From: Streptomyces marispadix
GTDB taxonomy: Bacteria; Actinomycetota; Actinomycetes; Streptomycetales; Streptomycetaceae
DNA length: 64,000 nt
Assembly (NCBI RefSeq): GCF_022524345.1
Contig: NZ_JAKWJU010000002.1
Coordinates: forward strand, 3,100,001-3,164,000
Direction of reading: 5' to 3'
The stretch's first letter is position 1. Each line of letters starts with the position of its first letter. Under the pieces are notes generated by a model. The model made no database searches. It had not been told where the DNA came from and saw only the letters and a program-made list of their open reading frames with translations. Positions 20,760-35,070 of the stretch are shown piece after piece. The position numbers were made by a program, and so were the translations under genes.

Positions 20760-20833
20760 GCGGGTGTAGTTTAATGGTAGAACATGAGCTTCCCAAGCTC
20801 AGAGCGCGGGTTCGATTCCCGTCACCCGCTCCA
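20760..20833 (+). tRNA. tRNA-Gly (CCC anticodon)
   Basis: A complete cloverleaf: acceptor stem GCGGGTG/CACCCGC, D-arm with TTTAATGGTAGAA, anticodon stem TGAGC/GCTCA enclosing TTCCCAA (anticodon CCC), T-arm GCGGG-TTCGATT-CCCGT and an encoded 3' CCA (20831-20833). A hairpin terminator follows. The last 42 nt recur at 23116-23157 and, in decayed form, at 34707-34741, marking it as the integration target of one or more elements. Confidence 0.97.
20792..20833 (+). repeat. attachment-site copy 1 (3' end of tRNA-Gly)
   Basis: These 42 nt, from the anticodon CCC to the terminal CCA, are identical to 23116-23157. Integrative elements commonly recombine into a tRNA 3' half and restore it, leaving a partial copy at the far end. 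Confidence 0.85.
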
Positions 20834-20837
20834 GCAC

Positions 20838-20888
20838 AAAGCCCCAGGCCAGAGGCCGCCAGGCCAGAGGCCCGGGGCTTCTTTGTTG
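20838..20888 (+). terminator. tRNA-Gly transcription terminator
   Basis: AAGCCCCAGGCC pairs with GGCCCGGGGCTT around an internal repeat (AGGCCAGAGGCC) and is followed by CTTTGTTGT. It is a typical intrinsic terminator directly after the tRNA. Confidence 0.8.
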
Positions 20889-21114
20889 TGCGGGGACGGT
20901 ATCGCCGATGAGCTGCCTTGCAGAGCTCTTCCGGACAGATGTCTGTCAGTCCATTCCGTGCTGCACATCTGCGCAGTACGGCAACGTTGCCCTCAGCATC
21001 CGGTACACCAACTCCGGTAGACCCCGACACTTGCCCGCCTGCCATCGCGTGCCCCACGCCGTTCCCGTAGCGCGGGTAAACCCCGGTCAACAGCAGGTCG
21101 TTGAGAGCCGCGCC

Positions 21115-21315
21115 AGCCTGGCGCGTCTGCGGCGGTTCGAGCGGGCTGCCCACGTGACTGTGGACGGCAGGCTGCCGCTGGCGGAAGTGGCGTTGCGCAC
21201 CGGCTACAGCGATCAGGCCCACTTCAACCGGGAGTTCCGGCGGAGTGCGGGCACTGCTCCTAGGGAGCATCTGCGGCCGCGCCGCTCGGAGTCCTCCGAC
21301 GGCACACTGCCCTGA
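21115..21315 (+). pseudogene. AraC-family regulator remnant (C-terminal HTH only)
   Basis: Only the last 60 or so residues of an AraC/XylS DNA-binding domain remain: RLRRFERA, then LPLAEVALRTGYSDQAHFNR and EFRRSAGTAPREHL. Upstream the frame loses all similarity, and no start codon with a ribosome site precedes it. The remnant lies 280 bp inside the first interval of the tRNA island. It probably belonged with the VOC remnant just downstream, as such pairs are often adjacent. Confidence 0.75.
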
Positions 21316-21435
21316 ACGGGACGGCCCAGGAGCGGACAAACGTCCAATACGGGCCAGCCGCACGTTCGTACGCTGACGAGGTCAGCAACTGCGCATGGTG
21401 GACGAGTTCGTGATGCTCAGTCGAACGCGGGCGTC

Positions 21436-21600
21436 ATGGACTACATCGACGATGTGGACGCGCACTTCGAGCAGGCCAGGTCGGCTGGGGTGACGATCTG
21501 GTATGAGCCGCAGGAGATGCCCTACGGGCAGCGGGGATACGGCGTCCGGGACCCGGAAGCGGATTCTGGTGCTTCAGGGCGCTTCACCAGCACGTGCACG
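21436..21600 (+). pseudogene. VOC/glyoxalase-family remnant with frameshift
   Basis: The plus frame reads DVDAHFEQARSAGVTIWYEP and then PYGQRGYGVRDPE, the C-terminal half of a VOC domain. At about 21556 a single-base deletion is inferred: in the next frame the text continues GFWCFR, as intact homologues do after RDPEG. The N-terminal half is missing. It is probably inactive. Confidence 0.7.
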
Positions 21601-21708
21601 ATCCCGCACGTGATGAGTGAGCCCGCTCCGGCCCCGGACCAGACAGCCATCTGATCCTTACAAGACCCGAGACCTGTCTCTGCCAGGGAGGGCAGTAGCC
21701 TGCGCGCC

Positions 21709-22029
21709 ATGACTGATCGCAAACCCCTCGAGGGCGCCCCGTCCACGCCCCCTGCGCCCCGCAGCGCGGGGCGGATACTGGGCGCCGTCGTCCTGGTCTG
21801 CCTCGCGGCAGGTCTCTTCTACATCGGAGTCGACGCCCTCGCCAGCCCCGGCCGGGTGGTGGCCGAGTCCTCAGGCACCGGGCGCAGCCCGGACTCCGAG
21901 TCCGAGGCCAAGATCGGAGGACTGCTGATGTGCCTCTTCGGGGTCTCGGTCCTCTGCGGGGCGATCGCACTGTTGCAGAAGCCAGGGAAAGGCAAGCCGT
22001 CCGTCGGCGCAACGCCGCCACGTCCATGA
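21709..22029 (+). CDS. hypothetical two-helix membrane protein
   Basis: A 106-residue protein: Pro-rich N-terminus, helix 1 GRILGAVVLVCLAAGLFYIG (about 21-40), a polar loop and helix 2 IGGLLMCLFGVSVLCGAIAL (about 69-88). No family was recognised. TAGCCT at 21696-21701 lies 7 nt before the ATG and no ribosome site is present, so the mRNA is probably leaderless. It lies inside the first island interval. Confidence 0.6.
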   Translation: MTDRKPLEGAPSTPPAPRSAGRILGAVVLVCLAAGLFYIGVDALASPGRVVAESSGTGRSPDSESEAKIGGLLMCLFGVSVLCGAIALLQKPGKGKPSVGATPPRP

Positions 22030-22139
22030 GCGAAACGCGCGTACGCGGGAATGGGCTCCCCTCGGCATGGCGAGGAGCGAGCACGCCTGGAGGAAGAAGC
22101 GGTGGGCGATGATCGCCCGTTCTCGGAGGAGGTAGATGT

Positions 22140-22640
22140 ATGACGCGGCAGAACAAGCCGTGGACGGTCCAGTGGCACATCGTTGCGGACGGCACGGTGA
22201 TCCGACAGCGTTCAAAAGGGGATCAACCCCACGAGCAGCTGTTCGGGACGCACGCCACGAACCAGAAGCTGGAACTCGCCGACCTGGAGGCGCTCGACTA
22301 TCGCATCGCTCGGAACCAGCGCTTCTTCAACGTGCTTGCCGCTGTTCTGGTGGGTGTCGGCGTGATCGACGTGGTGGCGCTAGCGGCCGGCATGGTCCTC
22401 GCCTGGGTCGGCGTCGACGCAGGTGGCGCGCTCGTGATGCCGGCGCTGTTGCTGCTTGTCGGGCTGCTGATCGCCATCGGCGCAGCTCAAGGGCTCATGC
22501 TCAGGCGCTTCAATCGGGCCTGGACCGATGCCGGCTTCGCATCGTCAAATCAGGTGACGATGGCAGCTTCCGAGGCGCGTTCGCTGATCGCAGCGCCCGG
22601 AGCGGTCTCGGGACGCCCGGTCAGAGTCAAAAACGCTTGA
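22140..22640 (+). CDS. hypothetical two-helix membrane protein
   Basis: A 166-residue protein with a soluble N-terminal part (PWTVQWHIVADGTVIRQ), two transmembrane helices (about 62-85 and 95-118) and a polar C-terminus. GGAGGAGGTAG precedes the ATG at 22140. No family was recognised. It lies inside the first island interval, 111 bp after the previous small membrane protein. Confidence 0.6.
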   Translation: MTRQNKPWTVQWHIVADGTVIRQRSKGDQPHEQLFGTHATNQKLELADLEALDYRIARNQRFFNVLAAVLVGVGVIDVVALAAGMVLAWVGVDAGGALVMPALLLLVGLLIAIGAAQGLMLRRFNRAWTDAGFASSNQVTMAASEARSLIAAPGAVSGRPVRVKNA

Positions 22641-23115
22641 TCACTCCCCTCGACGTGACGGACTCGGCTTCCGCGACGGGTTCGGCTCTCGTCAAAGGAC
22701 GAGACGGAGTCAGGCACCCGTCACGGTGAGTGGTCTCTTTGGTGTCCGGCCACCGGCAGGCGCTATCACTGACCTCTGCGCGTCAAGGGGATGTTGGTTC
22801 GTCGAGGGCCGGGCCGGTGCCCACCAAGAAACCGTCGAGGATGCCGGACCGGTACTGAAGGCGCTTGAGCCGGTCGCGTATGAGTGCTTCGAGATAGTCG
22901 AAGGCGACGATGACCTTGGTCGCACCAAGACTGGTCGGTTTCACGTTGAACACCGCGGCGACAGCCTCGTGTTCGCCGCACGACTGCCGCACCACATGCG
23001 CACCAGAACAGGCCAAACCACGGTCATCAGAGGGCCGTTGGAAGAGCCGTTCGACGACTGGACAAGTCCCCTCTGCGCAGGTCAGGCGCCAACTGGCCCG
23101 ATCTGCACGGTGATC
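22641..23115. other. no confident gene; possible decayed coding sequence
   Basis: Frames are open on both strands but none has a ribosome site plus a recognisable family. The minus frame ending at 22783 reads VFNVKPTSLGATKVIVAFDY and LEALIRDRLKRLQYRSGILD, which looks protein-like and may be a remnant. This stretch abuts the second tRNA copy, where an integrase or excisionase would be expected, but no tyrosine or serine recombinase motif is visible. Confidence 0.4.
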
Positions 23116-23157
23116 CCCAAGCTCAGAGCGCGGGTTCGATTCCCGTCACCCGCTCCA
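23116..23157 (+). repeat. attachment-site copy 2 (42-nt tRNA-Gly 3' fragment)
   Basis: Identical over 42 nt to the tRNA-Gly end at 20792-20833, including the CCA. The 5' half of the tRNA is absent here. It marks the right end of a 2.3-kb interval. Confidence 0.92.
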
Positions 23158-23162
23158 CGACG

Positions 23163-23196
23163 AAGGCCCAGGTCAAAGACCCGGGCCTTGTTTGTT
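23163..23196 (+). terminator. hairpin after the second tRNA fragment
   Basis: AAGGCCC at 23163-23169 pairs with GGGCCTT at 23183-23189 and is followed by GTTTGTT. It mirrors the terminator after the intact tRNA, as expected if this was once the original tRNA 3' flank. Confidence 0.8.
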
Positions 23197-23339
23197 GGCT
23201 GGGCCTCTCTAAAGGTCTTGCACCAGATCGGCAGCCGGAAGGCACGTCGAGACCGCCAACGAAGCCCGTCAACGCCGCACCGGACACGGTCAGGTCCTCG
23301 ACTGCCATGAGGAACCGCGCTGATGAGACATGGGGCGCC

Positions 23340-23558
23340 TCATGCCAGCTGGTTGGGCTCCAGAGAGAAGAAGCACACGTTCGCGACGCTCCTCATCCTG
23401 CTGGACAGCATTTGCAGGTGGTCTTCACGGACCTTGAGGAACACCTCATGCCGGGTCATGCCAGGCGGCGGTACGTACGTGCCCGAGTACGACACGACCT
23501 GTGTGTGGGCAGCGAAACTGATGATGTAGCAGTACTCCCTGGGCGACTGGTGTTGCAC
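23340..23558 (-). CDS. small conserved hypothetical protein
   Basis: A 72-residue protein read from GTG 23558: REYCYIISFAAHTQ, then YSGTYVPPPGMTRHEVFLKV and a C-terminal VANVCFFSLEPNQL. The pattern of an N-terminal strand pair, a PPPGMTR helix start and a terminal FFSLEPN resembles short orphan proteins common near Streptomyces mobile regions; no function is known. An AGGA lies about 9 nt upstream of the GTG; the frame stays open to 23699. Confidence 0.55.
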   Translation of the reverse strand: MQHQSPREYCYIISFAAHTQVVSYSGTYVPPPGMTRHEVFLKVREDHLQMLSSRMRSVANVCFFSLEPNQLA

Positions 23559-23721
23559 CGTGCTTGGTCCTCTCGTGACCGTCCTCAGCACGCCGTTCGG
23601 CGGCACGCTCCTCGTACCCAGGACGGCGGCCCGGGCCTTGCGGTTTCGTGCGGCGGACCCTGGCGAGTCCTGAGTCAGGGGCCAGTGAAGCGTTCCCACG
23701 GGACGGCGCGGATCTTGAGTA

Positions 23722-24510
23722 TCAGGCCGGCTTGCGACCCCATGCGGTGATCATCGGGGCGAGCATGAGGTCCAGTTCCCCGTGCGCGAGGTTCGCGAGA
23801 TGCGTCTCGATCTCCTCGGGCGTGGCCAGTTCCGCGGCCAGGAGTTGGTCGCGGACGTGCTGGACCGTGGACGCCTCCAGGATCGTGCACGCGCGTGACG
23901 CGATGGGGAAGTAGGCCTCGGCGCCTACGTCCGTCAGGTCTGACTCACGCAGTAGCCGGGGCAGCGTGCGACCGTATGCGAGGTCCGCGCCGCGCTCGGC
24001 CATCAGCGTTCGGATCCGGGATCGCAGCCGGTTCGCCAGCGCTTCGTCGGGGCCGCGTTCGTCCGGGCACGCGAGTGGTTGCAGGGCTGGGTCGCCGTCC
24101 TCGATCACCAGCCATCCGCCCGGCCGGAGCGCATCGACCATGACTCGCATCGCGGCCGCGCGATCCTTCAGGTGGACCAGGACCAGGCGGGCGTGGACCA
24201 GGTCGAACGTCTCCGCCGGCGGTGGGTCGCGGATCACGTCGTGCCGCCGTACCTCGAGGGCGCCGCCGGCCGCGGGCTCCGCCCACGACACGTCGATGTC
24301 TGTGGCCAGCACCCGGCCGCCGGCCCCCACGCGCTCCGCCAGGCCGCGCGGCACCGAGACGCCGCCTGCGCCGACCTCCCAGCACCGCCACCCTTCACCC
24401 AGCCCCAGGTCGTCGAGGTGACGAAAGGTCCACGGGTCGAACAACTCGGCGAGCGCCGCGAACCGTTCGCCGGCTTCCGGGCGACGGTTGTCGAGCAGAT
24501 AGCGGTTCAC
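23722..24510 (-). CDS. class I SAM-dependent methyltransferase
   Basis: A 262-residue protein starting VNRYLLDNRRPEAGERFAAL. The SAM-binding motif I is CWEVGAGGVSVPRGLAERVG, followed by LATDIDVSW (acidic loop), FDLVHARLVLVHL and LRPGGWLVIED. The substrate is unknown. GTG 24510 has CATACT 6 nt upstream and no ribosome site, so it may be leaderless; an upstream extension to 24639 is not supported. It lies in the second island interval. Confidence 0.8.
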   Translation of the reverse strand: MNRYLLDNRRPEAGERFAALAELFDPWTFRHLDDLGLGEGWRCWEVGAGGVSVPRGLAERVGAGGRVLATDIDVSWAEPAAGGALEVRRHDVIRDPPPAETFDLVHARLVLVHLKDRAAAMRVMVDALRPGGWLVIEDGDPALQPLACPDERGPDEALANRLRSRIRTLMAERGADLAYGRTLPRLLRESDLTDVGAEAYFPIASRACTILEASTVQHVRDQLLAAELATPEEIETHLANLAHGELDLMLAPMITAWGRKPA

Positions 24511-24651
24511 CGCATCAGTATGGCCGGTCAACGTCGTGCAGATACCGGGCCGTTGACGAACGTCACGGTCGGGAGGCTCGCAGGTCTCACCCACAACTCC
24601 CTCATGGAGCCGAGGCGACCTCTGCTCTTCACGGGCCACAGGCGTGCCGGT

Positions 24652-25071
24652 CTAAGCGTCGCGTCCGCCGTCCGGCAGGTGCGAAGTGGCCAGGCGTGAC
24701 GGGGGCGTTGCCGCGGTGCCGTTCGTCAGCGCTGCTTGGACGATGCGGATGGCCTCGTCGGTGTCGATGCCGACGCCGGCGATGACCTCGGCGTACTCGG
24801 CGGCGGCGCGGCGTGCCCGTTCGCGTCCCTGCTCGCCGGATGCGGAGACGAACGAGCCTGCCGGTCCACGGGTCTCGATGAGCCCCGCTTCCTCCAACTG
24901 CCGGTAGGCGCGGCCGACGGTGTTGACGGCCAGGTTGAGGTCCGCGGCCAGGCGGCGGATGGTCGGCAGCTTGGTGCCCACGGCCAGTGTGTTGTCCTGG
25001 ATCTGACGGGCGAGTTGGGCGCGTAGCTGCTCGAACGGTGGGACGGGCGAGGCCGAGTCGATGACGATCAT
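24652..25071 (-). CDS. GntR-family regulator, YtrA-like
   Basis: A 139-residue regulator with an N-terminal winged HTH: PVPPFEQLRAQLARQIQ, KLPTIRRLAADLNLAVNTVG and YRQLEEAGLIETRGPAGSFV. The short C-terminal part (about 70 residues) is the small YtrA-type rather than the FadR or HutC type. YtrA regulators usually control an adjacent transporter or membrane operon. It starts 4 nt after the stop of the upstream membrane-protein gene, so the two form an operon and probably an autoregulated pair. Confidence 0.88.
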   Translation of the reverse strand: MIVIDSASPVPPFEQLRAQLARQIQDNTLAVGTKLPTIRRLAADLNLAVNTVGRAYRQLEEAGLIETRGPAGSFVSASGEQGRERARRAAAEYAEVIAGVGIDTDEAIRIVQAALTNGTAATPPSRLATSHLPDGGRDA

Positions 25072-25075
25072 CGGT

Positions 25076-25888
25076 TCACCGGGGTGCGAGTGGCGTGCCG
25101 CGCCGCCGTGCCGCCAGTCCGGTCCACACGGTGATCAGGGCGAGCGAGACGGCGCTCAGGGCGACGAAGAGACACCAGGCGAAGACCCACCAGCCAGGCA
25201 CGGTGTCGAGCACCGAGGCGACAGGCAGGCACCACACCAAGCTCGGCGTAGTGACCTCGCGGGCGTCCTCGACGCGCATGACGACGTCGGTGGTCAGCGA
25301 AGCCTCGTCCTCGGCCACGACCGGGTGCGTCAGAACGTGGCGCAGCTGGACGACCGTCACGACCGCGGCCCCGCACAGCCCGATGAGCAGGACGAGTGCC
25401 GCATACCGCGCGGTGGAGTCCAGCACGGTCAGGGCACCGATCGCCAGCAGCATCGCCCCCGCGAACGTGGCGACCGCGAACGCGGCACGCGCCCGGCCGA
25501 GCACGGTGCGCCAGCCGGGCCGGACCGGGTGGGCCGCCCGTCGCGGCAACGTCGCGCCGACCCGCCGGTCTACCTGCCGCACCCGCCGGTCCAGCAGCGA
25601 CTGGGCCAGCACCAACCCCGCCACCACCGCCGTCAAGACCAGCAGCGACCAGTGCCGGTACGACCCGGAGCCGTCGGCCGCGGGGCCGTGAGGCCGGGCG
25701 AAGGTGTAGACAAGGGCGACCGCGATGATGAACGCGGCCAGCAGGACAGCAGCGGCCAGACGGGCACGTTGCCGGACCGCCAGACGCGTGGCCAGCAACG
25801 GTGTCGGCTGGACGTCGGTCAGGCCGTGCACGGCCAACCACTCGCCGGCGCCCTTCAATTCCGCCGGACTCACCGACTGGTCAGTCAT
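25076..25888 (-). CDS. multi-pass membrane protein co-transcribed with GntR regulator
   Basis: A 270-residue protein beginning MTDQSVSPAELKGAGEWLAV, then about six hydrophobic helices in the order AAAVLLAAFIIAVALVYTFA, SLLVLTAVVAGLVLAQSLL, a basic loop, FAVATFAGAMLLAIGAL, ALVLLIGLCGAAVVTVV and a C-terminal pair. The start at 25888 follows AAGGAGGGCTGGCGG. Similar two-gene units (GntR plus a DUF1648/SdpI-like membrane protein) occur in actinobacteria, but no diagnostic motif was confirmed here. It lies in the second island interval. Confidence 0.7.
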   Translation of the reverse strand: MTDQSVSPAELKGAGEWLAVHGLTDVQPTPLLATRLAVRQRARLAAAVLLAAFIIAVALVYTFARPHGPAADGSGSYRHWSLLVLTAVVAGLVLAQSLLDRRVRQVDRRVGATLPRRAAHPVRPGWRTVLGRARAAFAVATFAGAMLLAIGALTVLDSTARYAALVLLIGLCGAAVVTVVQLRHVLTHPVVAEDEASLTTDVVMRVEDAREVTTPSLVWCLPVASVLDTVPGWWVFAWCLFVALSAVSLALITVWTGLAARRRGTPLAPR

Positions 25889-25937
25889 CCGCCAGCCCTC
25901 CTTCGTCATGAGGCTCCATGCGCTCCATGTCTTAAGC

Positions 25938-25973
25938 CTTGTCTCAAGATGGTGCGTCAAGCGTTGGGACAAG
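25938..25973 (-). promoter_or_regulatory. candidate operator/promoter of the membrane protein-GntR operon
   Basis: CTTGTC (25938-25943) and GACAAG (25968-25973) form a perfect 6-bp inverted repeat. On the minus strand, TTGACG (25955-25960) lies inside it and could be the -35 hexamer, with TTAAGA-like bases as a weak -10 near 25932-25937. The GntR protein encoded by the operon is the obvious candidate ligand. Confidence 0.35.
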
Positions 25974-26229
25974 TCAACGGCGGAGCGGCGCATCGGTCTT
26001 GCATCGGCTGCGTGCCGTTCGCGTACCGCTGCCGTGCGTCGACGGTGTGTAGTCAAGGTCGGCTCCTGCGGATGCCGCTGATCACGAGCACACCGCTCGC
26101 TGGCAAGTGCCGGGTTCGGATGGTTCGGGGTCGCGGGCAGCGTCGCCGGTGGGCAGGGCGCTTCTGCGGCCGCAGGGCGTCGTTGCAGTCGTCTGGCAGC
26201 GGCTCACGGCTGCCGATAATCTCCCTGCC
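25974..26229. other. divergent upstream region
   Basis: No gene is seen. TAATCT at 26217-26222 is a good -10 box 7 nt before the ATG of the plus-strand hypothetical gene. Confidence 0.45.
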
Positions 26230-26700
26230 ATGTCATCTCAGGGGCGTGGGGCCGCAGTTGTCGTCTGCATCGTGTTGGCGATGCTCGGCATATCAACGGC
26301 GCTGATCTTGTCGGCGGTGGCGCTGGACGCGAGTTCTCAGGTATCCAGCAAGCCGATGGACGAATTCAAGAACGAGGAGCACCTGTTCGAGGAATCCAGG
26401 TGCGACCCCGACAGCGAATCTCCGCCCGACCAGCCCTTCTTGTCCTGTCTGACCGAGCACGAGGCGAACATGCAGGAGGACGCGGCGAATTGGGCGGCCG
26501 AGATCGAAGGGCGTCAGGCGGACATCGAAACGAAGGGCAACTTGGCCGTCATCTTCGGCCTGGCCGGGGTGACATTCGCGGTCTGCGCCGTCGCGTCCAG
26601 CAGGAGCAGCCGAACCATGCCGCAGACCACCGGCTCGTCTGCCGTGCCTCCTGCCCCAGGCGGCGCCCCCATGCCTGTCCAACCACCCTCGCAGTCATAG
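26230..26700 (+). CDS. hypothetical membrane-anchored protein
   Basis: A 156-residue protein with an N-terminal helix (VVVCIVLAMLGISTALILSA), an acidic extracytoplasmic segment containing a Cys pair (RCDPDSESPPDQPFLSC), a second helix (LAVIFGLAGVTFAVCAVA) and a Pro-rich tail. No family was recognised. It is probably leaderless, with TAATCT 7 nt before the ATG. It lies in the second island interval. Confidence 0.6.
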   Translation: MSSQGRGAAVVVCIVLAMLGISTALILSAVALDASSQVSSKPMDEFKNEEHLFEESRCDPDSESPPDQPFLSCLTEHEANMQEDAANWAAEIEGRQADIETKGNLAVIFGLAGVTFAVCAVASSRSSRTMPQTTGSSAVPPAPGGAPMPVQPPSQS

Positions 26701-26762
26701 CCTCGGCCACCAAGACGACCGCCGCATGCTTGCGTGAGCACTCGACCGACCCGCCTGGAGGC

Positions 26763-28358
26763 TCAGTGGCGAAGCGTGGCAGTGGCCGGGTGGCCGTACT
26801 CGTTGCCGCTCGCTGCGTCCTTGTCGGGCTGTGAACGCCGGCTGAGAGCGCGGCAGATCAGGAATCCGGTCGGCACGCTCAGAATGCTCGGCGAGGTCAG
26901 CGGCCACATGCTCCAGTCGGCGTGCGGGAAGAGCGCGTGGGCGGCGCCCGAGGTCAATGGCGAGAAGAAGATCAGGACCAGGTTGATCGCGGTGGTCGAC
27001 AGGACGCAGTACTTGATCGCCGCGGCCGTCATCGTCCGCTTGCCCAGGCTGAACACGAGCAGCGGCAGCAGCGTCGATACCGTCTCCGTGTAGGTGAGGA
27101 CCAGCCAGAACTGCGGGCTCACGTCGATCGTCAGCGCCGCGATCAGGATGCTGAAGACGCCCAGGCCCACCATGGCCAGCCGGGCCCGAACTGCTCCTCT
27201 GTCGCGGCGGGCGTCCGGTTCCACCTCGACGTCGCCGCCGCGGCCCAGGTCGTGCACGATCGACGCGGCTCCGGACAGCAGCAGTACGGAGGCGGAGGCG
27301 AGGATGGTGAGGAAGACGGAGCACATGATGAAGAACATGAGCTTGCCCACGTCGCCTGACTCGCTGCCGTCCAAAGCCATGGCGAGCAGTGCCAGGTTCA
27401 CGCCGCCGAACGGCCCCTCCTGGGCCAGCTCCTCGCGCCCGATCAGAGCGGCGATGCCGAATCCGAGGAACATGGCGGTGCCGACGAGGAAGCCCAGAGC
27501 GGCCGCCCCCACGCCCGCCGCCCTCCGGGCACTGCGGGCATCGGGTGATCCGGCCAGGCGTACGGCGATGTGCGGCAGGAAGGCCGCGCCGACCAGCACG
27601 CAGCCGGCGTAGCTGAGGAGATCCAGGTGCCCGGCGATTCCCCCTCCGAAGAGGCCGCCGGTGCCGAGATATTCGCCGGTGCCCCCCTGCTGCCGCTCGG
27701 CGGTCTCCAACAGGGTGCCGATGTCACCGTGGAAGCGAAGCAGCACCATCGCCGCCATCACCGGGGCGATCACCAGGAAGGAAGCGGCCGTGCCGATCTG
27801 GTGCATGGTCGCGCCGCGGGCGGCGCCGATCGTGGCACAGGCGAGAATCAATCCGCCGGCGAGTACGACGACCAGCCGACGGCTGAACGGATCGCTCAGC
27901 CCGATCAGTTGGGCGGCATGGCCGAGCGGCTGAAGCTGCCCGATGAGCAGGGGCACCACGGCCACCAGGCACGCGATCCCCACCCAGCGCTTGGCGGACC
28001 CGTGTGGCAGGTGGCGGGTAACCATCGCGCCGAAGGTCCGACCTCTGGCCGCGGGCAGTCTGCCCGCAAGCCAGCTCCGCATCAGCACGGGAGACGCGGC
28101 CGCGCACAACAAGAGGATGACTCCGTCGAGCCCGCTGAAGGCGACGGTGCCCAGCAGATAGAGCACGGCGGCGGTGGGCATGACTTCGCTGGCGACGGCC
28201 AGGCCGGTCGGCACGGCGCCGAGTTGCTTGCCCTCGCGGAAGAAGCCGTCGCCGATGCGCAGATCCGGGCTGACCCACATGGCCAGGAACAGGCAGGCGG
28301 CGATGAACAACATGAACAGGCACACGACGAGGAAACGTGGTTCGAGGAAGTCATTCAT
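26763..28358 (-). CDS. sodium:solute symporter (SSS family, ActP-like)
   Basis: A 531-residue integral membrane protein with about 13 helices. The N-terminus (LRIGDGFFREGKQLGAVPTG), the discontinuous helix region (TAAVLYLLGTVAFSGLDG), the TMHQIGTAASFLV segment and FLTILASASVLLLSGAASIV match the acetate/monocarboxylate branch of sodium-solute symporters. The usual partner DUF485 protein is not adjacent. The ATG at 28358 has only a weak GAGCAGG site. The substrate is unknown. Confidence 0.82.
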   Translation of the reverse strand: MNDFLEPRFLVVCLFMLFIAACLFLAMWVSPDLRIGDGFFREGKQLGAVPTGLAVASEVMPTAAVLYLLGTVAFSGLDGVILLLCAAASPVLMRSWLAGRLPAARGRTFGAMVTRHLPHGSAKRWVGIACLVAVVPLLIGQLQPLGHAAQLIGLSDPFSRRLVVVLAGGLILACATIGAARGATMHQIGTAASFLVIAPVMAAMVLLRFHGDIGTLLETAERQQGGTGEYLGTGGLFGGGIAGHLDLLSYAGCVLVGAAFLPHIAVRLAGSPDARSARRAAGVGAAALGFLVGTAMFLGFGIAALIGREELAQEGPFGGVNLALLAMALDGSESGDVGKLMFFIMCSVFLTILASASVLLLSGAASIVHDLGRGGDVEVEPDARRDRGAVRARLAMVGLGVFSILIAALTIDVSPQFWLVLTYTETVSTLLPLLVFSLGKRTMTAAAIKYCVLSTTAINLVLIFFSPLTSGAAHALFPHADWSMWPLTSPSILSVPTGFLICRALSRRSQPDKDAASGNEYGHPATATLRH

Positions 28359-28820
28359 GGGCCGAACAACCTGCTCGGTGTGGGGAGGTCATCCTGGTCG
28401 CTCCGGTGATGGAACGGGGCCCGCGAGGCCCGCGCTCTCGGGGATTCGGCATGGCTCGTCGAGGTTACCGGAGGTCATCTGATGTCTCGTGAGTTTGGTT
28501 TTCCGTTACACCGTCCTCACGTGGGGTTATGGGCAGGGCCGAGGGAAACCGGGGCTGCGTTGTGAGCATCTGACGGACGAGATGGCGAACTGGCAGGCAA
28601 ATGTGGAGTCCACGGTCATACGTGCGCATCAACGTCCTGCCGGTGCGCCGAGGCCCCGCTTCGGCCGGTGGTCGGCGAGGCGACTCTCGCGGTCCGCGAA
28701 GTCCTCTTCCCCTCGACGTGGAGGGAGCGCGGACGGCCCGACGGCCGCGCGACCGGTGACCTCAGGGTCTCCGGTACGCAGCGAGCCGAGGGGCCGCCCG
28801 ATCGCCGGCCGGCGTCCGTG
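28359..28820. other. gene-free region
   Basis: This region lies upstream of the symporter and downstream of the M23 peptidase. The open frames have no ribosome site and read as arginine-rich noise. It is slightly AT-richer near 28480-28520. Nothing else was recognised. Confidence 0.4.
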
Positions 28821-29396
28821 TCAGCAGGAGTTGTTGCTCTTGACGTTCCGCCAGGTCTTGTTGCTTCCGGCGTACTCGACTCCGTTGAACGAAGCCTTGA
28901 CCCGCTCCGAGTCGGATGTGCCCCAGGAGGCCTTCCCGTCGCCGTTGGCGTCGACGCCGTGCTCGAAGTGGAGGTGGGGGTGGCCGTTGGAGGTCGGGCC
29001 TGTCTTTCCGACGGCGCCGATCCCCTGGCCCTGAGCGACGGTGTCGCCCTCCTTGACGGACCGCGACTTCATGTGGAGGTACGTGGTGAAGTGGCCGCCG
29101 CCGTGGTTGATCTGAACCACGTTGCCGGCGTTGTCGTGCCAGAAGGACATGTTGACCGTGCCGGCCTCCGGCGCGACGATCTGCGCGCCCTCGGTCCCGT
29201 GCTGGTCCGGCTCCTTGACCATGTCCAGCGCGGGGTTGTGGGCCCAGGTGTCGAGTCGCCAGGAGTCCCCGCACTTGAAGGGAAGCTGGAAGTTCGTCGC
29301 CCGCGGCTCCTCCTCCGCGGCGGACGCCGCGACCGGTGTCACCGCTGCCCCCGCCACCAGGATCATGCCCAGCATGATGCCGGTTTTCTTCTTCAT
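28821..29396 (-). CDS. secreted M23-family (LytM) peptidase
   Basis: A 191-residue exported protein. The signal peptide covers residues 1-27 (KKKTGIMLGMILVAGAAVTP, then ASA). Metal ligands of M23 are recognisable: His53 and Asp58 in AHNPALDM, His108 in YLHMKS and the HPHLHFE motif (139-145). Such enzymes cut peptidoglycan cross-bridges or act as degenerate LytM domains; spacing of the first motif (HxxxxD rather than HxxxD) differs from the classical form. Short insertions near DANGDGKASW resemble a calcium loop. ATG 29396 follows GGAGAGACC. Confidence 0.88.
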   Translation of the reverse strand: MKKKTGIMLGMILVAGAAVTPVAASAAEEEPRATNFQLPFKCGDSWRLDTWAHNPALDMVKEPDQHGTEGAQIVAPEAGTVNMSFWHDNAGNVVQINHGGGHFTTYLHMKSRSVKEGDTVAQGQGIGAVGKTGPTSNGHPHLHFEHGVDANGDGKASWGTSDSERVKASFNGVEYAGSNKTWRNVKSNNSC

Positions 29397-30025
29397 GGTC
29401 TCTCCGAATCTGAGTTTGTCGTGATCACTGCATTCCCCGCGGCGGCACAGTAGCGCGAGCAGTTCACCCGCGGTGGCACGTTCAGTTGTCCGACAAATGG
29501 CGAGACGAATTGCTGCCTCTGCTCGCGGAATAACGCCAGCGAGAGCCCTCGCGCTCTCCCCGCCGTCGGCGCGGTGGCGGCATGCACCCGTTGAACAGGC
29601 GCCTCAGCGGACCGACTTGAGCTTCGCGTCCACCAAATCCGCCTGGTCACACGCCTCCAGCCGGCACCGGGGGGCCGCGTCGTTGCTGCGCACCTCGCCG
29701 CGCGACGCCGTCCGTGGAGCGTCGAAGTACGCGCGTACCTCGTCGGGAAAGCGAAGAATGTAGAGGACCGCGCCGCTGTGGAAGACGCAGGAAAAGCAAG
29801 GACGTTGACGCGGCAGGACAATTGAAAAAGGGGATGCCCCCTGGCTCTCACGATGGGCGAGTCGGTCGAATACAGCGATCTCGATGCTTTTTCGGCGGTC
29901 TCTACGATTGGAACGCCGAGCGCAAACCGTCCGGGCAACGGACTTCGCCAAGTGGGCCCGCGGGGCTTTTCGTTGTGCCGGATGTTGCGGCCCTGTCCGG
30001 CCGTGCAGGACCTAGGCTCCTCCCC
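29397..30025. other. long region with one doubtful minus-strand ORF
   Basis: A minus frame at 29604-29951 reads LYILRFPDEVRAYFDAPRTA near its middle and RCRLEACDQADLVDAKLKSV at its end. This looks partly protein-like, but it has no ribosome site or known family and may be a fragment. TAGGCT at 30013-30018 is a -10 box for the next plus-strand gene. Nothing else was recognised. Confidence 0.35.
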
Positions 30026-30280
30026 ATGACTGATGGGGATATGCGCTACGGACGCTGTGGGGCGTGCGGCGGCGGCGAGGTGTACCGGGGCGAGTACGTG
30101 GCGCAGGCCGGGCTCCGCAAGCCGGGCGGAGGCAAGTTCCGGGCGAAGCAGCCGGTGTTCGACGCCTACGTCTGCGCGGCCTGCGGGAATACCCAACTGC
30201 ACGTGCAGCTCGACGCGAAGATGGCGTCGCACATCCGGCACGAACTCGAGTGGATACCGCCGCAGAAGAGACTGGGCTAA
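30026..30280 (+). CDS. small zinc-ribbon-like protein
   Basis: An 84-residue protein: RYGRCGACGGGEVYRGEYVA, then VFDAYVCAACGNTQLHVQLD. The two CxxC pairs, 36 residues apart, form a likely four-Cys zinc site, as in nucleic-acid-binding small ribbons. TAGGCT lies 7 nt before the ATG with no ribosome site, so it is probably leaderless. Confidence 0.7.
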   Translation: MTDGDMRYGRCGACGGGEVYRGEYVAQAGLRKPGGGKFRAKQPVFDAYVCAACGNTQLHVQLDAKMASHIRHELEWIPPQKRLG

Positions 30281-30322
30281 CTCCCCGAGCGGGGGGATCA
30301 GCGGATCAGTGGTCCCGGCGAG

Positions 30323-30790
30323 TCACCGGGACGTGTCGATCCCGGCCCAGTCGGACTCGGCACGCCGGCGACTCCGCTGGGCCGACCGGAACGACCGCCG
30401 GCAGACGAACGTCACGACGAGCAGCGGGAAGTTGATCGCCAGCAACGGAAGCGCCCACAGGCCCGCGTGCCGGATCAGAAGGGCCGCACACGCGGCCACG
30501 AGCACCGCGCACACGAGTGCCAGGACGAGGAAGGCCGCACCCGCGAGTCCCGGCCGACGCCTCGCCGTCCGGCCCGAGAAGGCGAGGGAAGCCCCGCAGA
30601 AGGACAGCACCATCAGGAGCGGCGAGGAGTACGTCACCACCCTGAGCGCCTCGGTCGTCGAGCCGGCCGTCGGACCCGTCGTCAACGCCAGGGCGGTGAG
30701 CCCCGCGTGCAGCAGTGTCCAGGCGAGCCCGGCGACCCCGAGGACCACCATGCCTCGCCTGACGGTGGCCTCGGGGACGCTGGTTTTCAT
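30323..30790 (-). CDS. hypothetical four-helix membrane protein (T7SS-like cassette)
   Basis: A 155-residue protein with four predicted helices (about 13-37, 50-70, 80-105 and 108-128) and a basic C-terminus (CRRSFRSAQRSRRRAESDW). It starts 15 bp after the WxG-transmembrane gene stop, so it is the last gene of that unit. No family was recognised. An immunity or accessory role in the cassette is speculation. Confidence 0.65.
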   Translation of the reverse strand: MKTSVPEATVRRGMVVLGVAGLAWTLLHAGLTALALTTGPTAGSTTEALRVVTYSSPLLMVLSFCGASLAFSGRTARRRPGLAGAAFLVLALVCAVLVAACAALLIRHAGLWALPLLAINFPLLVVTFVCRRSFRSAQRSRRRAESDWAGIDTSR

Positions 30791-30805
30791 CTGCGCACCG
30801 TCCGA

Positions 30806-31510
30806 TCAGCCGAGGGCGAAGCTGGGCCACTTGTCGCTGTAGTTGTTCATGTTGCGCAGCGCCGAGGCGGAGTCGCTGGCGGCGAAGTTCAGCGCCACCG
30901 TGGCGCCCCCGGCAGCGAGCAGGAAGCCGACCACCGCGGAGATCTGCGCCAGCAGTCCCGCCGGGATGCCGATGATGGTGCCCTCCGCGCCGATCCCGGC
31001 GACGAACGCCAGGGCGGCCACGACCAACGCGCTCACGATCGCGATCCAGAAGATCCAGATCCCGGTCTTCATGGTGTTGAGGGCGGACGAGACACCGGAC
31101 GCATAGATACGCCCGACCGCGTTGAGCGCGTCCTTCTGGCCGCCGATCTTGGACTTGTAGGCGCTGGCCGCGCTTCCCGTCCAGTTGTCGTCCACCATCA
31201 GGTCGTCCGAATCCACCTCACCCGCCCGTTTATGGGCGGGGCCGCCGAGATCGTTGTTCCATCTCTCCCCGGTGTCCTTGAGGAGGAACGGGTCGCCGAC
31301 GTAGGCGAGTTTGTCGGTGAACCAGTCCCAGAACTCCGACATCTTGTCGCAGAACTTGCCCCAGAGGTCCTCGACCTTCGAGATGACCCAGTGCAGGAAC
31401 GGAGGTACATGGGACAGCAGTCCGTTGATCTTGGACTTGATCTGGTTGACCAGGTCACGGATGTGGTCGAGCTTGTCGACGATCTTCTGGATGAGTTCGT
31501 TGATGTCCAT
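30806..31510 (-). CDS. WxG-motif protein with C-terminal membrane helices
   Basis: A 234-residue protein. An amphipathic helical N-terminus (MDINELIQKIVDKLDHIRDL, then Trp/Phe-rich HWVISKVEDLWGKF) is followed by a WXG100-like hairpin with WTG at 110-112 (DDNWTGSAASAYKS), then two or three transmembrane segments (about 151-172 and 176-210). WXG100 proteins are type VII secretion substrates; fusion to membrane helices suggests an effector or a membrane-anchored partner. ATG 31510 has GGAGAC upstream. The next gene up encodes an ESX-like protein. Confidence 0.75.
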   Translation of the reverse strand: MDINELIQKIVDKLDHIRDLVNQIKSKINGLLSHVPPFLHWVISKVEDLWGKFCDKMSEFWDWFTDKLAYVGDPFLLKDTGERWNNDLGGPAHKRAGEVDSDDLMVDDNWTGSAASAYKSKIGGQKDALNAVGRIYASGVSSALNTMKTGIWIFWIAIVSALVVAALAFVAGIGAEGTIIGIPAGLLAQISAVVGFLLAAGGATVALNFAASDSASALRNMNNYSDKWPSFALG

Positions 31511-31567
31511 CGTGCTGTCTCCGTCTCCCGTGAAAGTGCTGGTCGGTGGGCCTCTGGCTGGTAGGGC

Positions 31568-31876
31568 TCAGTGCCATTCCCACGACGACTTGAGGCGCTG
31601 TATCGCCGCCTCGTCGCTGCCTTGGTATGTGTTGTGCACCTTGCGGAGCGCGTCCGCGGCTCCGGAGGTCTCGCGCTCGCCGTCGCGGAGGTAGTCCTCC
31701 ATGAACGAGCGCACCTCCTCGTACTGCTTGTGGACGTCGCCCCCCATGAAGGAGAAGTCCTGGGCGCGCAGGGTCATGTCCGCGCAGTCGGCCCGGGCTC
31801 TCTGCAACATCGCGGCCGTGTCGTCCCAGCGCTTGGCATCCTTGGTCAACGCCTCCATGGACGCTTTGAAAGTCAT
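31568..31876 (-). CDS. ESX/WXG100-like small helical protein with YxxxD signal
   Basis: A 102-residue, almost entirely helical protein: ASMEALTKDAKRWDDTAAML, then a turn with FMGGD (43-47, in place of WxG), then a second helix and YQGSDEA. Tyr84-X3-Asp88 fits the general type VII export motif YxxxD/E, followed by a short C-terminal helix. ATG 31876 follows AGGAGCCACCG. It is the middle gene of a minus-strand unit (YbaB-like, ESX-like, WxG-membrane, four-helix membrane). Confidence 0.75.
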   Translation of the reverse strand: MTFKASMEALTKDAKRWDDTAAMLQRARADCADMTLRAQDFSFMGGDVHKQYEEVRSFMEDYLRDGERETSGAADALRKVHNTYQGSDEAAIQRLKSSWEWH

Positions 31877-31902
31877 CGGTGGCTCCTGATTCGTCTGCGG
31901 TC

Positions 31903-32673
31903 TCAGCGGGCGGGGCCCGGGTGCGGGGAGTCGTCGAGCCCGAGGTACGTGGCCAGGTCGGAAGGGTTCTCGGCGAGAGCCGCGAGTGTGGTGAGCCGCG
32001 CGAACGGCGGGCTCTCCTCGGTCCTCTCGGCGAGCCGGCGGCGGGCCTGCTCCAGTGCCTCCACGGCCTCGCGGCCGATGTTGAAGGCGTGGGCGCGTCC
32101 GAGCCAGCGCAGGTCGAAGTCCAGTCCGACCGGGTCGCCCGATCCTGAGACGGTGGCGGTGACGTGCCCCGAGCCGCTCCGGCCGGTGACCTCGGTCGAA
32201 GAAATCGCGTCCGCCTCGGAACTGGCCTCCTGCATTGCGCCGTCGAGCTCTTCGAGCATGTCCATCAGCCGGTTCAGGGTCCGCGTATCGTCGATCGTCG
32301 CCCCGGCCTGCTCGAAGCGTTCAAAAAGCTGACCGGCCACGGTGTCGGACATCCCGGGCCGGGGCCTGGGCCGCGGCGGGTCCGCCTCGGCACGCTCGAG
32401 GGCCTCCCCCCATGCCTCCAGGCGCTGCGTCACGGCCTGTTGGTATGCGCTGAGCACGGCGGAGCCCAGCTCGGTGTCCCGGAGGGACCGCTGCCAGTCG
32501 GGGTCGACCCGGATACCGGCGAGCTTTCCTTCCGTATCCAGGTCGACCGTCACCGAGCGGGTGTCGTCGAAGCCCTGGCTGGGACCGGCGTTCTTCATCT
32601 GCTCAAAAACTTGCGCGTCCACATCGGCACGGTCCCGGATGTCGTCGATATGGTCGCGGGCGTCGTCAGGCAT
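31903..32673 (-). CDS. tandem YbaB/EbfC-like protein (T7SS-associated)
   Basis: A 256-residue protein with two YbaB-like units: residues 38-86 (SVTVDLDTEGKLAGIRVDPD plus helix) and about 158-215 (VTGRSGSGHVTATVSGSGDP, then GLDFDLRW and a long helix EAVEALEQARRRLAE), joined by an Arg/Pro-rich linker (100-107) and a helix. In actinobacteria YbaB-fold proteins recur beside WXG100 genes (EspG/EspC-type neighbourhoods). Chaperone or DNA-binding roles are possible. ATG 32673 follows GGGGAGGG. It is the first gene of the cassette. Confidence 0.7.
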   Translation of the reverse strand: MPDDARDHIDDIRDRADVDAQVFEQMKNAGPSQGFDDTRSVTVDLDTEGKLAGIRVDPDWQRSLRDTELGSAVLSAYQQAVTQRLEAWGEALERAEADPPRPRPRPGMSDTVAGQLFERFEQAGATIDDTRTLNRLMDMLEELDGAMQEASSEADAISSTEVTGRSGSGHVTATVSGSGDPVGLDFDLRWLGRAHAFNIGREAVEALEQARRRLAERTEESPPFARLTTLAALAENPSDLATYLGLDDSPHPGPAR

Positions 32674-32993
32674 GGGCCCTCCCCGTTGTTGTCGCCGGCA
32701 GATCTGGGGTGGGAGTGGCCAGCCAGCGGGCCACGAGTCACCCCGGACGCGGCAACCACACGCCGACGCCGCGAATGCCCTGGTCAGCCCGACCAGAACC
32801 GCAGTGGCGCGCCCCCTGAGTCAGGGTGCCTCCCTAGCCGCCGAGGCTATGCGAAACACACCAGACCTTGCGCACTCCTACACCCCAACTACACGCCGAT
32901 CCTGTCAGGTTGGGAACGGCTCAATGGCCAACTTGCCCAACCTGAGTGCAGCCGGGGGCGAGCACGACGTCCGAGGGCGTGCCCAGCGGCTGC
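32674..32993. other. intergenic region with 10-bp perfect inverted repeat
   Basis: TCAGGTTGGG (32905-32914) and CCCAACCTGA (32936-32945) form a perfect 10-bp stem with a 21-nt loop. It is about 50 bp past the stop of the minus-strand FG-GAP gene and 230 bp upstream of the YbaB-like gene, so it could be the FG-GAP terminator or an operator of the cassette. No gene is seen. Confidence 0.55.
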
Positions 32994-34463
32994 TCAGCGG
33001 GTGCTCAGCGGCTTTCCGTACTTCTGGGCCGTGGACGGGTACGGGAGGCCGAGCGTGCGAGGGGAGAAGGCCGCCGAGCCCCTGGCCGAGCCGCCGGGGA
33101 GGTACCACACGGCGCCCAGGGACGCGTTCTCGCCGGGGGACCCGGCCGTCACGTCCGGTATGCCGTCGGCGTTGAAGTCACCCGAGGCGACCGCCGCGCC
33201 GAAGGTGTCGCCCGCCTCGGCGACGCCGGGGACGCCCGACGTGTCCTGGTTCCAGGCGACGGACGTGGCAGCGCCCGCGGCGTCGAGCAGCCCCTTGGCG
33301 CCGCCGTGGAGCAGCCAGGCGGCGCCCGCCCCCGTCCTGCTTCCGATGGCCTCACCTAGAGCGCCCGCGATCAGGTCGTCGCGGCCGTCGCGGTCGACGT
33401 CGGCGGCGGCGAGGGCGGCGCCGAAGCGGTCGCCGTCCTCGGCAACGCCCGGGACGCCCGCCGTGTCCTGGTTGAGGGTCTGGGCGCGGCTGCCGAACGG
33501 GCCGCCCGCGGGGCTTCCGTAGTGGATGTGGACGCCGCCGCCCTTGGCGAGTTCTTCGGGGCCGCACGGGTCGTCGATGTTCTCGTCGGCGATCTCACGG
33601 CATTCGCCGAGCGCCAGGTCGTCGTGGCCGTCGCCGTCGAAGTCGCCGGCGGCCAAGGCCGTGACACCGGCGTTGTCCGTGTTCCAGAAGTTGGCCATCG
33701 CGGACCGGTCGGCGTCCCACTTCCACAGGCGCACGTGGGACTGCGTGTTGGGGTCGCTCTCGGTCCAGTACGCCACGGCCAGGTCCGCCGTGCCGTCGCT
33801 GTCGAAGTCGCCGGTGGCCAGGACGGGGGCGCGGCCGCCCATGGGGGCGGCGACGACGGTGGTGACCATGCTGTCCTCGCCCTGGATGACGCGGGCGACG
33901 ACCTTGTCCTTGCCGCCGATCACGATCGCCTTGTTGCCGCCGCCGGTCAGGTCGGCCGCCGCGACCGATCTGCCGTACGCGGCCGACGGCGACGGCCCGG
34001 TGAGCACCGTCGACCCCGGTCCCGGCCCGCCCTTCGAGCCGCCTACGGCGGTGACCATGCCCGCGTCCGTACCGCGGTCGGTGACGTCCTCGCCCGGGAC
34101 ACCGGCGAGGAGTTCCGCGATGCCGTCGCCGTTGAGGTCCACCAGGGCCACGGACGCGCCGAAGCGGTCGCCCGCCTCCGGGGTGCCGGGCAGCTCGGGA
34201 GTGGCCTGGGTGATGCGGATGCTCCCGTGGGCTCCGGCGCCCTTCGGGCCGCCCCAGACGACGTTCACGTACCCGGCCTTGGCCTGACCGCCGACGGTCC
34301 CGTCCGGGACGCCGACGGCGACGTCCGCGTAGCCGTCGCCGTTGAAGTCGCTCGCGACGGTACGGGGTGCGGCAGCGGTGGCCCCGGACGGGACCACGAA
34401 CCCGGCGGCGGCCACGGCGGCGGCCGCGACGGCGCACATCAGCATGCGGCGGTTGTGTGGCAC
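32994..34463 (-). CDS. secreted FG-GAP / integrin-alpha-like repeat protein (paralogue)
   Basis: A 489-residue exported protein. From GTG 34463 it reads VPHNRRMLMCAVAAAAVAAA, a signal peptide ending near ATAAAP. About seven FG-GAP blades follow (DFNGDGYADVAVGVP, DLNGDGIAELLAGVPG, DFDSDGTADLAVAY, DFDGDGHDDLALG, DVDRDGRDDLIAGA, DFNADGIPDVTAGSPG). It resembles the protein at 13475-14974, with the same NQDT-GVPG inter-blade signature. The frame is open to 34550, but the GGGGGT before the GTG and the signal peptide favour this start. It is the last complete gene before the third tRNA fragment. Confidence 0.88.
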   Translation of the reverse strand: MPHNRRMLMCAVAAAAVAAAGFVVPSGATAAAPRTVASDFNGDGYADVAVGVPDGTVGGQAKAGYVNVVWGGPKGAGAHGSIRITQATPELPGTPEAGDRFGASVALVDLNGDGIAELLAGVPGEDVTDRGTDAGMVTAVGGSKGGPGPGSTVLTGPSPSAAYGRSVAAADLTGGGNKAIVIGGKDKVVARVIQGEDSMVTTVVAAPMGGRAPVLATGDFDSDGTADLAVAYWTESDPNTQSHVRLWKWDADRSAMANFWNTDNAGVTALAAGDFDGDGHDDLALGECREIADENIDDPCGPEELAKGGGVHIHYGSPAGGPFGSRAQTLNQDTAGVPGVAEDGDRFGAALAAADVDRDGRDDLIAGALGEAIGSRTGAGAAWLLHGGAKGLLDAAGAATSVAWNQDTSGVPGVAEAGDTFGAAVASGDFNADGIPDVTAGSPGENASLGAVWYLPGGSARGSAAFSPRTLGLPYPSTAQKYGKPLSTR

Positions 34464-35070
34464 GGGGACCCCCACTCGGTCGACGGCGTGGGGGGGGTAT
34501 CTGGTGTGACCGTCGAAGGGCGGAGCTGGTTGTACGGGATTCACATTCACAGGCGGTTGGCGCCGAGTTCACGCTGGGCGGGATCGGCCGCCGGGCGAGA
34601 CGCTGAGCGTCGGGGACGCCGGAGACCGTGACGCGGTCATCGCCCGGCTGGCCCCGCGCTGGAACTCCGGTGTCGTCGAAGGGCATGCCGACCGGCAACT
34701 CACGGACTCAGAGCGCGGGTTCGACTCCCTTCACCCGCTCCGGTACACGGCCCCCAGGCCAACTGCCCCGGGTTCCTTGGTCGTACGGACCTACCGCACG
34801 GCCCGTCCCGACGCCCCAGTAGGTCTCGTGCCGGTCTCGCGCTCCCGGCCCGTACGTCGGCGGACGGCGGCGTAGGCGGACGGCCGCGTCGGCGGCCGTG
34901 CGTCGAGCGGGCGAGAAATCAGGCGAGATCCGCGCCACATTGCGGAACACTCGGGACCACCGATGAGTTCTGCCAGGCGTGCCGGTCTTCAGCGGTGCCC
35001 ACACCCACGTCCGTGCCGACAGCCGGCGGCTGCCAGGCGACCGTGACCTGAACCCCGATGAGGTGCTGCG
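34464..35070. other. region between FG-GAP gene and MFS gene, with tRNA fragment
   Basis: No convincing gene is present. The decayed tRNA-Gly copy lies at 34707-34741, followed by a GC-rich stretch (CCCCCAGGCC, then GCCCCGGG) that recalls the terminators after the other two copies. Open frames crossing it are tRNA-derived. Confidence 0.5.
34707..34741 (+). repeat. attachment-site copy 3 (decayed tRNA-Gly 3' fragment)
   Basis: Thirty-three of 35 nt match the tRNA-Gly end: CTCAGAGCGCGGGTTCGA, then two substitutions (T to C, G to T), then TCACCCGCTCC. The terminal CCA reads CCG here. It probably marks the old right end of an 11.6-kb interval starting at 23158. Confidence 0.8.

Follow-up and report, generated by a model that had tools for sequence, protein, structure and literature searches.

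A probable decayed two-unit tandem array of integrated elements at tRNA-Gly(CCC) in Streptomyces marispadix

We analyzed a 64,000-nucleotide stretch of Streptomyces marispadix DNA (hereafter the window, numbered from its first letter), in which the 3′ end of a tRNA-Gly(CCC) gene is repeated twice downstream of the intact gene. The two repeats, copy 1 and copy 2, delimit segment A, which adjoins the tRNA, and the longer segment B behind it (Table 1). The locus is very probably a decayed, two-unit member of a tandem array that is anchored on this tRNA gene and widespread in the genus. In relatives, the occupant of the same site is an actinomycete integrative and conjugative element (AICE) of the pSAM2 type.

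Both repeats predicted by the initial annotation were found at the positions it gave, with 42 nt of copy 1 identical to tRNA positions 33 to 74 and copy 2 matching positions 39 to 73 at 33 of 35 nt. Apart from the tRNA and these copies, the longest exact tRNA match in the window was 13 nt. A 33-nt core pattern with up to three mismatches had only three sites in the 6.7-Mb genome, all on the plus strand at the tRNA-Gly locus, and the same pattern read backward did not occur in the whole genome. Thus, chance is excluded as the origin of the copies. A BLAST search of the genome with the tRNA and its flank recovered copies 1 and 2 at E-values of 1.9e-18 and 2.1e-11; the sole other match was a second full-length tRNA-Gly-like gene with 78% identity. 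Direct repeats derived from a tRNA 3′ end, as in pSAM2-type AICEs, are therefore present in the window. GC content is 66.0% in segment A and 69.0% in segment B, against 69.9% upstream and 70.9% downstream. The similar GC hairpin said to follow each copy was confirmed behind the tRNA (−36.6 kcal/mol) and copy 1 (−22.1 kcal/mol) but is weaker behind copy 2 (−13.9 kcal/mol).

The copies in the window and in relatives share a common end anatomy. A CAGGTCA arm is followed by the tRNA core, by a hairpin containing CAGGTCA (CCAGGTCA) and, where an integrase is present, by the 3′ end of its gene, whose stop codon lies about 52 nt behind the core. The hairpin with its conserved CAGGTCA motif is the integrase-side end of the elements. 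The core starts at tRNA positions 29 to 31, in the anticodon loop, in 73 of the 82 copies counted. When 86 distinct segments were scored at no more than one mismatch, 73 had the right arm, 80 the left arm, and 68 both; at this stringency CAGGTCA occurred in 5.6% (right) and 1.9% (left) of 1960 random stretches. Segments fetched after the motif had been discovered gave 28 right and 29 left arms in a first set of 29, and a weaker result, mainly on the left, in a second set of 57 (47 right, 40 left). The arms are presumably binding sites of the integrase.

In the window, copy 1 has the whole anatomy, with an exact right arm (GCAGGTCAG at 23077) upstream and CCAGGTCA at 23168 and an integrase stub downstream. 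The 86 nt behind it aligned with the left end of a full element in a relative (locus L119), stop codon included, with a score of 105, and the part beyond the hairpin scored 48. The maximum among 200 random window stretches was 40 with the hairpin and 36 beyond it. Segment A has an exact right arm, a left arm with one mismatch, and an exact core. Segment B has kept its left end, while its right end is decayed; upstream of copy 2 the right arm shows three mismatches to the motif and is in effect lost. Because a right arm precedes copy 1 and the left end of an element follows it, copy 1 marks the junction of segments A and B. This junction bears on the alternative that A and B were never separate and that one larger element acquired its internal copy by later internal duplication or recombination. 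Neither segment now has an integrase, as this alternative would allow; however, the ends at copy 1 are those of two abutting elements, and relatives carry arrays of two to eight copies with full elements in some slots. We regard a single element as improbable.

The anatomy suggests how such an array might grow. A pSAM2-type AICE would carry the 3′ half of the tRNA as a core between its CAGGTCA arms, and its tyrosine integrase would recombine this core with the tRNA gene. Each insertion would rebuild the tRNA and push the old 3′ half, with everything behind it, outward, so that the unit adjoining the tRNA would be the youngest. Segment B would have inserted first and later lost its integrase, replication, and transfer genes except for seven codons of the integrase; segment A, with both ends recognizable and no integrase, would have followed. 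Accretion beside the tRNA would thus make segment A younger than segment B, in agreement with the decay of copy 2. The initial annotation had proposed integration at the tRNA 3′ end in two successive steps, with the nearer 2.3-kb insertion younger than the 11.6-kb one. Our results support this proposal in both parts.

Copies of the tRNA tail are common in relatives. Among 36 relatives of the same genus, at least 24 carry a copy of the tail on the tRNA's own contig and strand. Copies were found in 23 of 73 named loci with the tRNA, usually within a view of about 9.4 kb behind it, and in 47 of 101 loci of a pooled set, or 46 of 99 after removal of two duplicates under different handles. This pooled set is not random, as ten genomes were chosen for having copies and the DNA viewed behind the tRNA ranged from 0.9 to 143 kb. 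Arrays reach eight copies (G190). In the stretches examined, which included about 10.6 kb upstream in 71 named loci, every copy followed the tRNA on its own strand. The same tRNA with tandem copies was also observed in Nonomuraea and Microtetraspora (L142 and L154, respectively), where an integrase fragment follows the tRNA or a copy at three of four places in the former and four of four in the latter. Thus, the array is not confined to Streptomyces.

In relatives, a gene for a tyrosine integrase of about 387 aa typically lies some 50 nt behind the tRNA end and points toward the tRNA. Fuller elements add RepSA, DUF2637, and an FtsK-like transfer gene behind it; in L071, an 11.5-kb unit with integrase, RepSA, and FtsK-like transfer protein (Tra) separates the tRNA from an exact copy of 44 nt. 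All three proteins were found at high similarity in 7 of 73 named loci (L105, L111, L113, L119, L137, L145, and L179). The integrase is the gene most widely shared behind the tRNA (27 of 91 loci). Of 99 distinct loci, 31 have a member of its family within 1.6 kb of the tRNA and convergent with it; in 17 of these it has at least 350 aa. Among the 86 distinct segments, 8 have an integrase of at least 350 aa, 19 a fragment, and 59 none at an E-value of 1e-5, and 48 of these 59 keep both arms. A check for other integrase families, made in eight genomes, placed two such genes in the fifth segment of G025. In G248 (L338-L339) two tandem elements were seen, with an integrase in slot 1, integrase, Rep, and Tra in slot 2, and a cassette encoding AbiEii in slot 4. 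A sister integrase (55% identical) lies in L060 (G019:C1:2821104-2821625), about 165 bp from another tRNA-Gly-like gene (2820863-2820939), and a similar one (54%) lies in G009 at 3327027 (L054); one branch of this family may target a different glycine tRNA.

The 3′ ends of tRNA genes are also targets of phage tyrosine integrases, and the copies could in principle stem from prophages or satellites that share this tRNA. A search of phage sequences returned 134 records that match the tRNA region; among the 20 listed, most were tRNA genes or unannotated. The integrase family in relatives is, however, accompanied by RepSA and an FtsK-like transfer protein, the stub behind copy 1 has its closest counterpart in the AICE end of L119, and no phage gene appeared among the open reading frames (ORFs) scanned with Pfam, the phage library PHROGs not being used. 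A phage origin is thus very improbable.

The window itself has none of the genes that define the element. No homologue of the integrase, RepSA, or Tra was found between 20 and 37 kb at an E-value of 1e-4, whereas L071 and other relatives have both Rep and the FtsK-like transfer gene. The initial annotation had noted that no recombinase gene remains and had suggested a search for integrase fragments with profile hidden Markov models (HMMs). A family HMM and tblastn gave nothing significant in the window, and a stub of seven codons emerged only in the nucleotide alignment; where relatives have a recombinase gene beside the attachment site, the window has this stub. The statement that no recombinase gene remains thus holds for the interval and, for this family, for the whole genome, apart from the stub behind copy 1. 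In the genome as a whole no cognate integrase was found, the nearest relative being 31% identical over part of its length and 1.75 Mb away.

The region surrounding the tRNA was compared across genomes. The dcd gene of the window has its closest matches in Streptomyces records. In all 17 genomes compared, dcd adjoins the tRNA, and the genes behind the tRNA include none that all 17 share. Segment A gave no single match longer than 177 bp in 150 genomes, that of the window itself apart, and segment B matched among 295 genomes in pieces of one or two genes, with one or two best candidate stretches scored per genome. Within the same scope we saw no relative that keeps the gene order of the whole interval together with a single tRNA copy, an arrangement that would have spoken against insertion. 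The initial annotation had also predicted relatives with an empty site, in which the tRNA would directly precede sequence like that after 34741; such sequence lies next to the tRNA in no relative examined. Its candidacy as the ancestral flank was dropped because it never adjoins the tRNA in the regions examined, and it is not conserved chromosome. The terD/terB locus, considered as the point where conserved order resumes, was likewise dropped, as terD copies lie elsewhere in many genomes. The major facilitator superfamily (MFS) gene has relatives with 78 to 88% nucleotide identity over 1.4 to 1.7 kb in several genomes, and one with 85% over 0.6 kb; those of G001, G002, and G008 lie on a different contig from the tRNA.

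Several observations weigh against a two-unit array of AICE descent. With no empty-site relative found, neither insertion was seen as a difference between presence and absence. The 3′ flank of the tRNA scored 43 with the hairpin, above the control maximum of 40, and 23 beyond it, the latter inside the control range, so that the left end of segment A is recognized by its hairpin only. The flank of copy 2 scored 40 with the hairpin, equal to the control maximum, and 31 beyond it, again inside the control range; the outer boundary of segment B is set by the 33/35 core alone. No gene of segment B resembles AICE genes. In addition, a tail match lies about 146 kb upstream of the tRNA in G007, and some tail copies are on other contigs in G002, G024, G026, G028, and G030.

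Comparison of short integrase-less segments between species revealed matches that span all or most of a segment. Three pairs, picked by eye from the list, matched at 94.6% (G005 slot 1 and G019 slot 3), 90.5% (G012 slot 5 and G025 slot 2), and 83.5% (G005 slot 3 and L182 slot 2). All three look like carriers of toxin-antitoxin modules: AbiEii (PF08843) with a 147-aa neighbor of no assigned family; AbiEi_2 (PF09952) with a 259-aa protein that, while matching nothing in Pfam or NCBIfam, resembles a nucleotidyltransferase in a sequence motif; and a CcdA-type antitoxin (PF07362) with a PIN protein (PF01850, just above cut-off). These small segments measure 1 to 1.35 kb and recur in many species and slots. 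Other short segments carry MarR with a questin oxidase, a sigma factor with DUF998, DUF5994, or genes of no recognized type. Defence-system models applied to ten proteins, five from cassettes of relatives and five from the window, identified one cassette protein as AbiEii and gave one weak match to mad1. No toxin-antitoxin gene turned up among the window ORFs when they were scanned with domain libraries and defence-system models. A 246-aa ORF without Pfam or NCBIfam match (L240:14440-15180, minus strand) has relatives in G003, G007, G009, and L141, giving five arrays in which it occupies different slots at 86 to 94% nucleotide identity.

Among the 30 best AbiEii loci of 295 genomes, all 13 with at least 82% identity were flanked by the tRNA tail (10 on both sides, 3 on one), compared with none of the 17 at 80% or less. 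The spacing in the ten two-sided cases was 1340 to 1352 bp in nine and 1209 bp in one. The 30 best PIN loci had the tail within 1.5 kb on both sides in 7, on one side in 15, and on neither in 8. Two full-length cassette genes stand in G076 in the reverse of their order in G005, G202, G203, G190, G081, and G139, while G202, G077, G228, and G269 have fragments of one or the other gene elsewhere.

Some of the small toxin-antitoxin cassettes seem, from sequence comparison, to have moved between species. A tree of the core region (an HGPRT-like gene and dcd, eight species) places G005, G202, and G139 apart from G019, G106, G081, G077, and G076, whereas the tree of the AbiEii cassette joins G019, G077, G005, and G202, both with full support. 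In approximately unbiased (AU) tests, either grouping was rejected when applied to the data behind the other (p 3e-53 and 2e-4); the tested clades were chosen after the trees were seen, and since the core comprises only about 1.1 kb beside the tRNA, the conflict could also reflect transfer of the core region. Cassette identity exceeded dcd identity in only 3 of 28 pairs. As this comparison is weak evidence for transfer, the tree conflict carries the argument. G005 has cassettes, yet none of its four PF00589 genes belongs to the integrase family of the arrays (best matches 24 to 31% identical).

The small integrase-less segments of relatives could instead be dead, vertically inherited remnants, their slots differing through insertions and losses around them. 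The low number of pairs in which cassette identity is above dcd identity fits this explanation, and slot numbers can shift merely through other units inserting in front. It accords less well with the near-constant AbiEii spacing, with the retention of each arm at no more than one mismatch in eight of nine AbiEii segments, with the differing order of two cassettes between G076 and G005 and others, and with the fully supported conflict between the cassette and core trees. Taken together, we consider dead remnants unlikely, though far less so than a phage origin or a single element.

Chromosomal integrons hold cassettes of one module each, including toxin-antitoxin modules, that share an orientation within the array, and arrays without a cognate integrase occur. 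The tRNA-Gly arrays resemble them in all these respects. In contrast to integrons, their repeats are tRNA-Gly 3′ halves with CAGGTCA arms, attC cassette ends being absent, and their platform is a tRNA gene. With slightly more doubt than belief, we propose that tRNA-Gly(CCC) of Streptomyces and relatives might serve as an integron-like platform, on which small, armed, integrase-less units, a part of them consisting of one toxin-antitoxin module, would be captured beside the tRNA in trans by the integrase of the pSAM2-type element, piled up by order of arrival, and stabilized by their toxins. By analogy, and just as tentatively, integrase-less arrays such as that of the window might correspond to those clusters of integron cassettes that have no integrase.

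The other genes of the two segments are listed in Table 1. The initial annotation had described a type VII secretion system (T7SS)-like cassette in segment B. At the usual threshold only the YbaB/EbfC domain was detected among its genes, and a rescan at loose threshold gave concordant matches to WXG100, EspA/EspE, and EspB families, all below cut-off; the three neighboring minus-strand ORFs at 30806-32673 are possibly, on these weak matches, a T7SS-associated cassette. The FG-GAP repeat gene (window 32993-34580) has a second copy 2.5 Mb away (G000:C2:5607630-5609215), 98.9% identical over 1590 bp. The similarity stops at the gene edges and the flanks are unrelated, a pattern that would fit a recent duplication or gene conversion. 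Segment B also contains a 414-aa ORF (25061-26305, plus strand) that matches nothing in Pfam or NCBIfam. G244 has DNA 79% identical to 24669-25980, and G111 matches part of this stretch at 74%; thus, something in it is conserved.

Table 1. Features of the tRNA-Gly(CCC) locus in the window.
Feature	Position	Strand	Basis or remark
dcd (dCTP deaminase), conserved flank 5′ of tRNA	19538..20113	-	TIGR02274, 216 bits
tRNA-Gly(CCC), probable integration target	20760..20833	+	ARAGORN
Segment A, ~2.3 kb, probably the younger insertion	20834..23115	.	GC 66.0%, no integrase found
Hairpin at the left end of segment A, with two diverged arm motifs (CCAGGCCA at 20844 and 20859)	20834..20890	+	motif, hairpin
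ORF, C-terminal part of AraC-type helix-turn-helix domain, probably fragment	20908..21315	+	PF12833, profile positions 25-78 of 80
Small ORF, probably membrane protein	21709..22029	+	Pfam matches below cut-off only
ORF, probably membrane protein	22140..22640	+	DUF2207_C below cut-off
Right arm GCAGGTCAG of segment A	23077..23085	+	exact motif
Core copy 1 (tRNA positions 33-74), exact	23116..23157	+	sequence match
Segment B, ~11.6 kb, probably older	23158..34706	.	no integrase, rep, or tra gene found
Hairpin with arm motif (CCAGGTCA at 23168) and integrase 3′ end, together the left end of segment B	23158..23243	+	86-nt match to L119
Integrase gene stub: stop and last seven codons (ADLVQDL*), then frame lost	23209..23232	-	by eye from L119 alignment
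Methyltransferase-like protein	23722..24639	-	PF08241
GntR-family regulator	24652..25071	-	PF00392
Sodium:solute symporter, monocarboxylate/acetate type	26763..28358	-	PF00474; NF058657 below cut-off
M23 peptidase	28821..29396	-	PF01551
ORF, sub-threshold WXG100 (E 0.014) / EspA-EspE (E 0.086)	30806..31510	-	loose-threshold scan
ORF, sub-threshold EspB family (E 0.006, far below cut-off)	31568..31876	-	loose-threshold scan
YbaB/EbfC-domain protein	31903..32673	-	PF02575
FG-GAP repeat protein	32994..34550	-	PF01839
Core copy 2, decayed, 33/35, without arm motif upstream	34707..34741	+	sequence match

Tandem accretion of AICEs and their remnants at tRNA-Arg in Streptomyces is described in PMC9513070 and PMC3218068. 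The tRNA-Gly arrays share with the pSAM2-type elements of these accounts the tyrosine integrase, the target in a tRNA 3′ end, the direct repeats, and the tandem elements with decayed traces. They differ from the tRNA-Arg arrays described there in the Gly-CCC tRNA, in reaching eight copies mostly without this integrase, and in the recurring toxin-antitoxin cassettes; the window further differs from pSAM2-type AICEs in having no integrase, rep, or tra gene. Cis-mobilizable elements (CIMEs) are presented in PMC5704250 as decay products that can move with a neighbor, and PMC4891641 reports the CIME XSAM1 beside pSAM2. Segments A and B resemble CIMEs in lacking integration and transfer genes, and segment A, with both ends recognizable, may fit this class. 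Unlike the CIMEs described there, the small units of the tRNA-Gly arrays reappear in several species with almost constant length. The tandem ssrA islands of Dehalococcoides (PMC3146451) have direct repeats of an RNA-gene 3′ end within 100 kb downstream and a motif beside each, and they resemble the tRNA-Gly arrays in their many repeats, conserved motif, and units without integration genes. They use Ccr-type recombinases and carry reductive dehalogenases, in contrast to the tyrosine integrase and toxin-antitoxin cargo found here. Among the papers listed by our literature searches, judged by titles and abstract openings, none gave an account of a Streptomyces tRNA-Gly cassette array or of its recurring toxin-antitoxin units. 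Tandem accretion is already known; toxin-antitoxin cassettes that recur at a tRNA gene seem to be a new variation on it.

For the window, the array accounts for the repeats, for the hairpins, and for the way in which conserved gene order stops abruptly past dcd and the tRNA. Taken alone, the small and decayed array of the window is of modest interest, and the class to which it belongs matters more. Whether toxin-antitoxin modules stabilize arrays is, to our knowledge, an open question for integrons. If the integron-like proposal is true, tRNA-Gly(CCC) arrays would allow a direct test of whether such modules stabilize direct-repeat arrays, and a large genus of antibiotic producers would have, in one of its conserved tRNA genes, a platform that collects genes independently of integrons and from which their order of arrival can be read.

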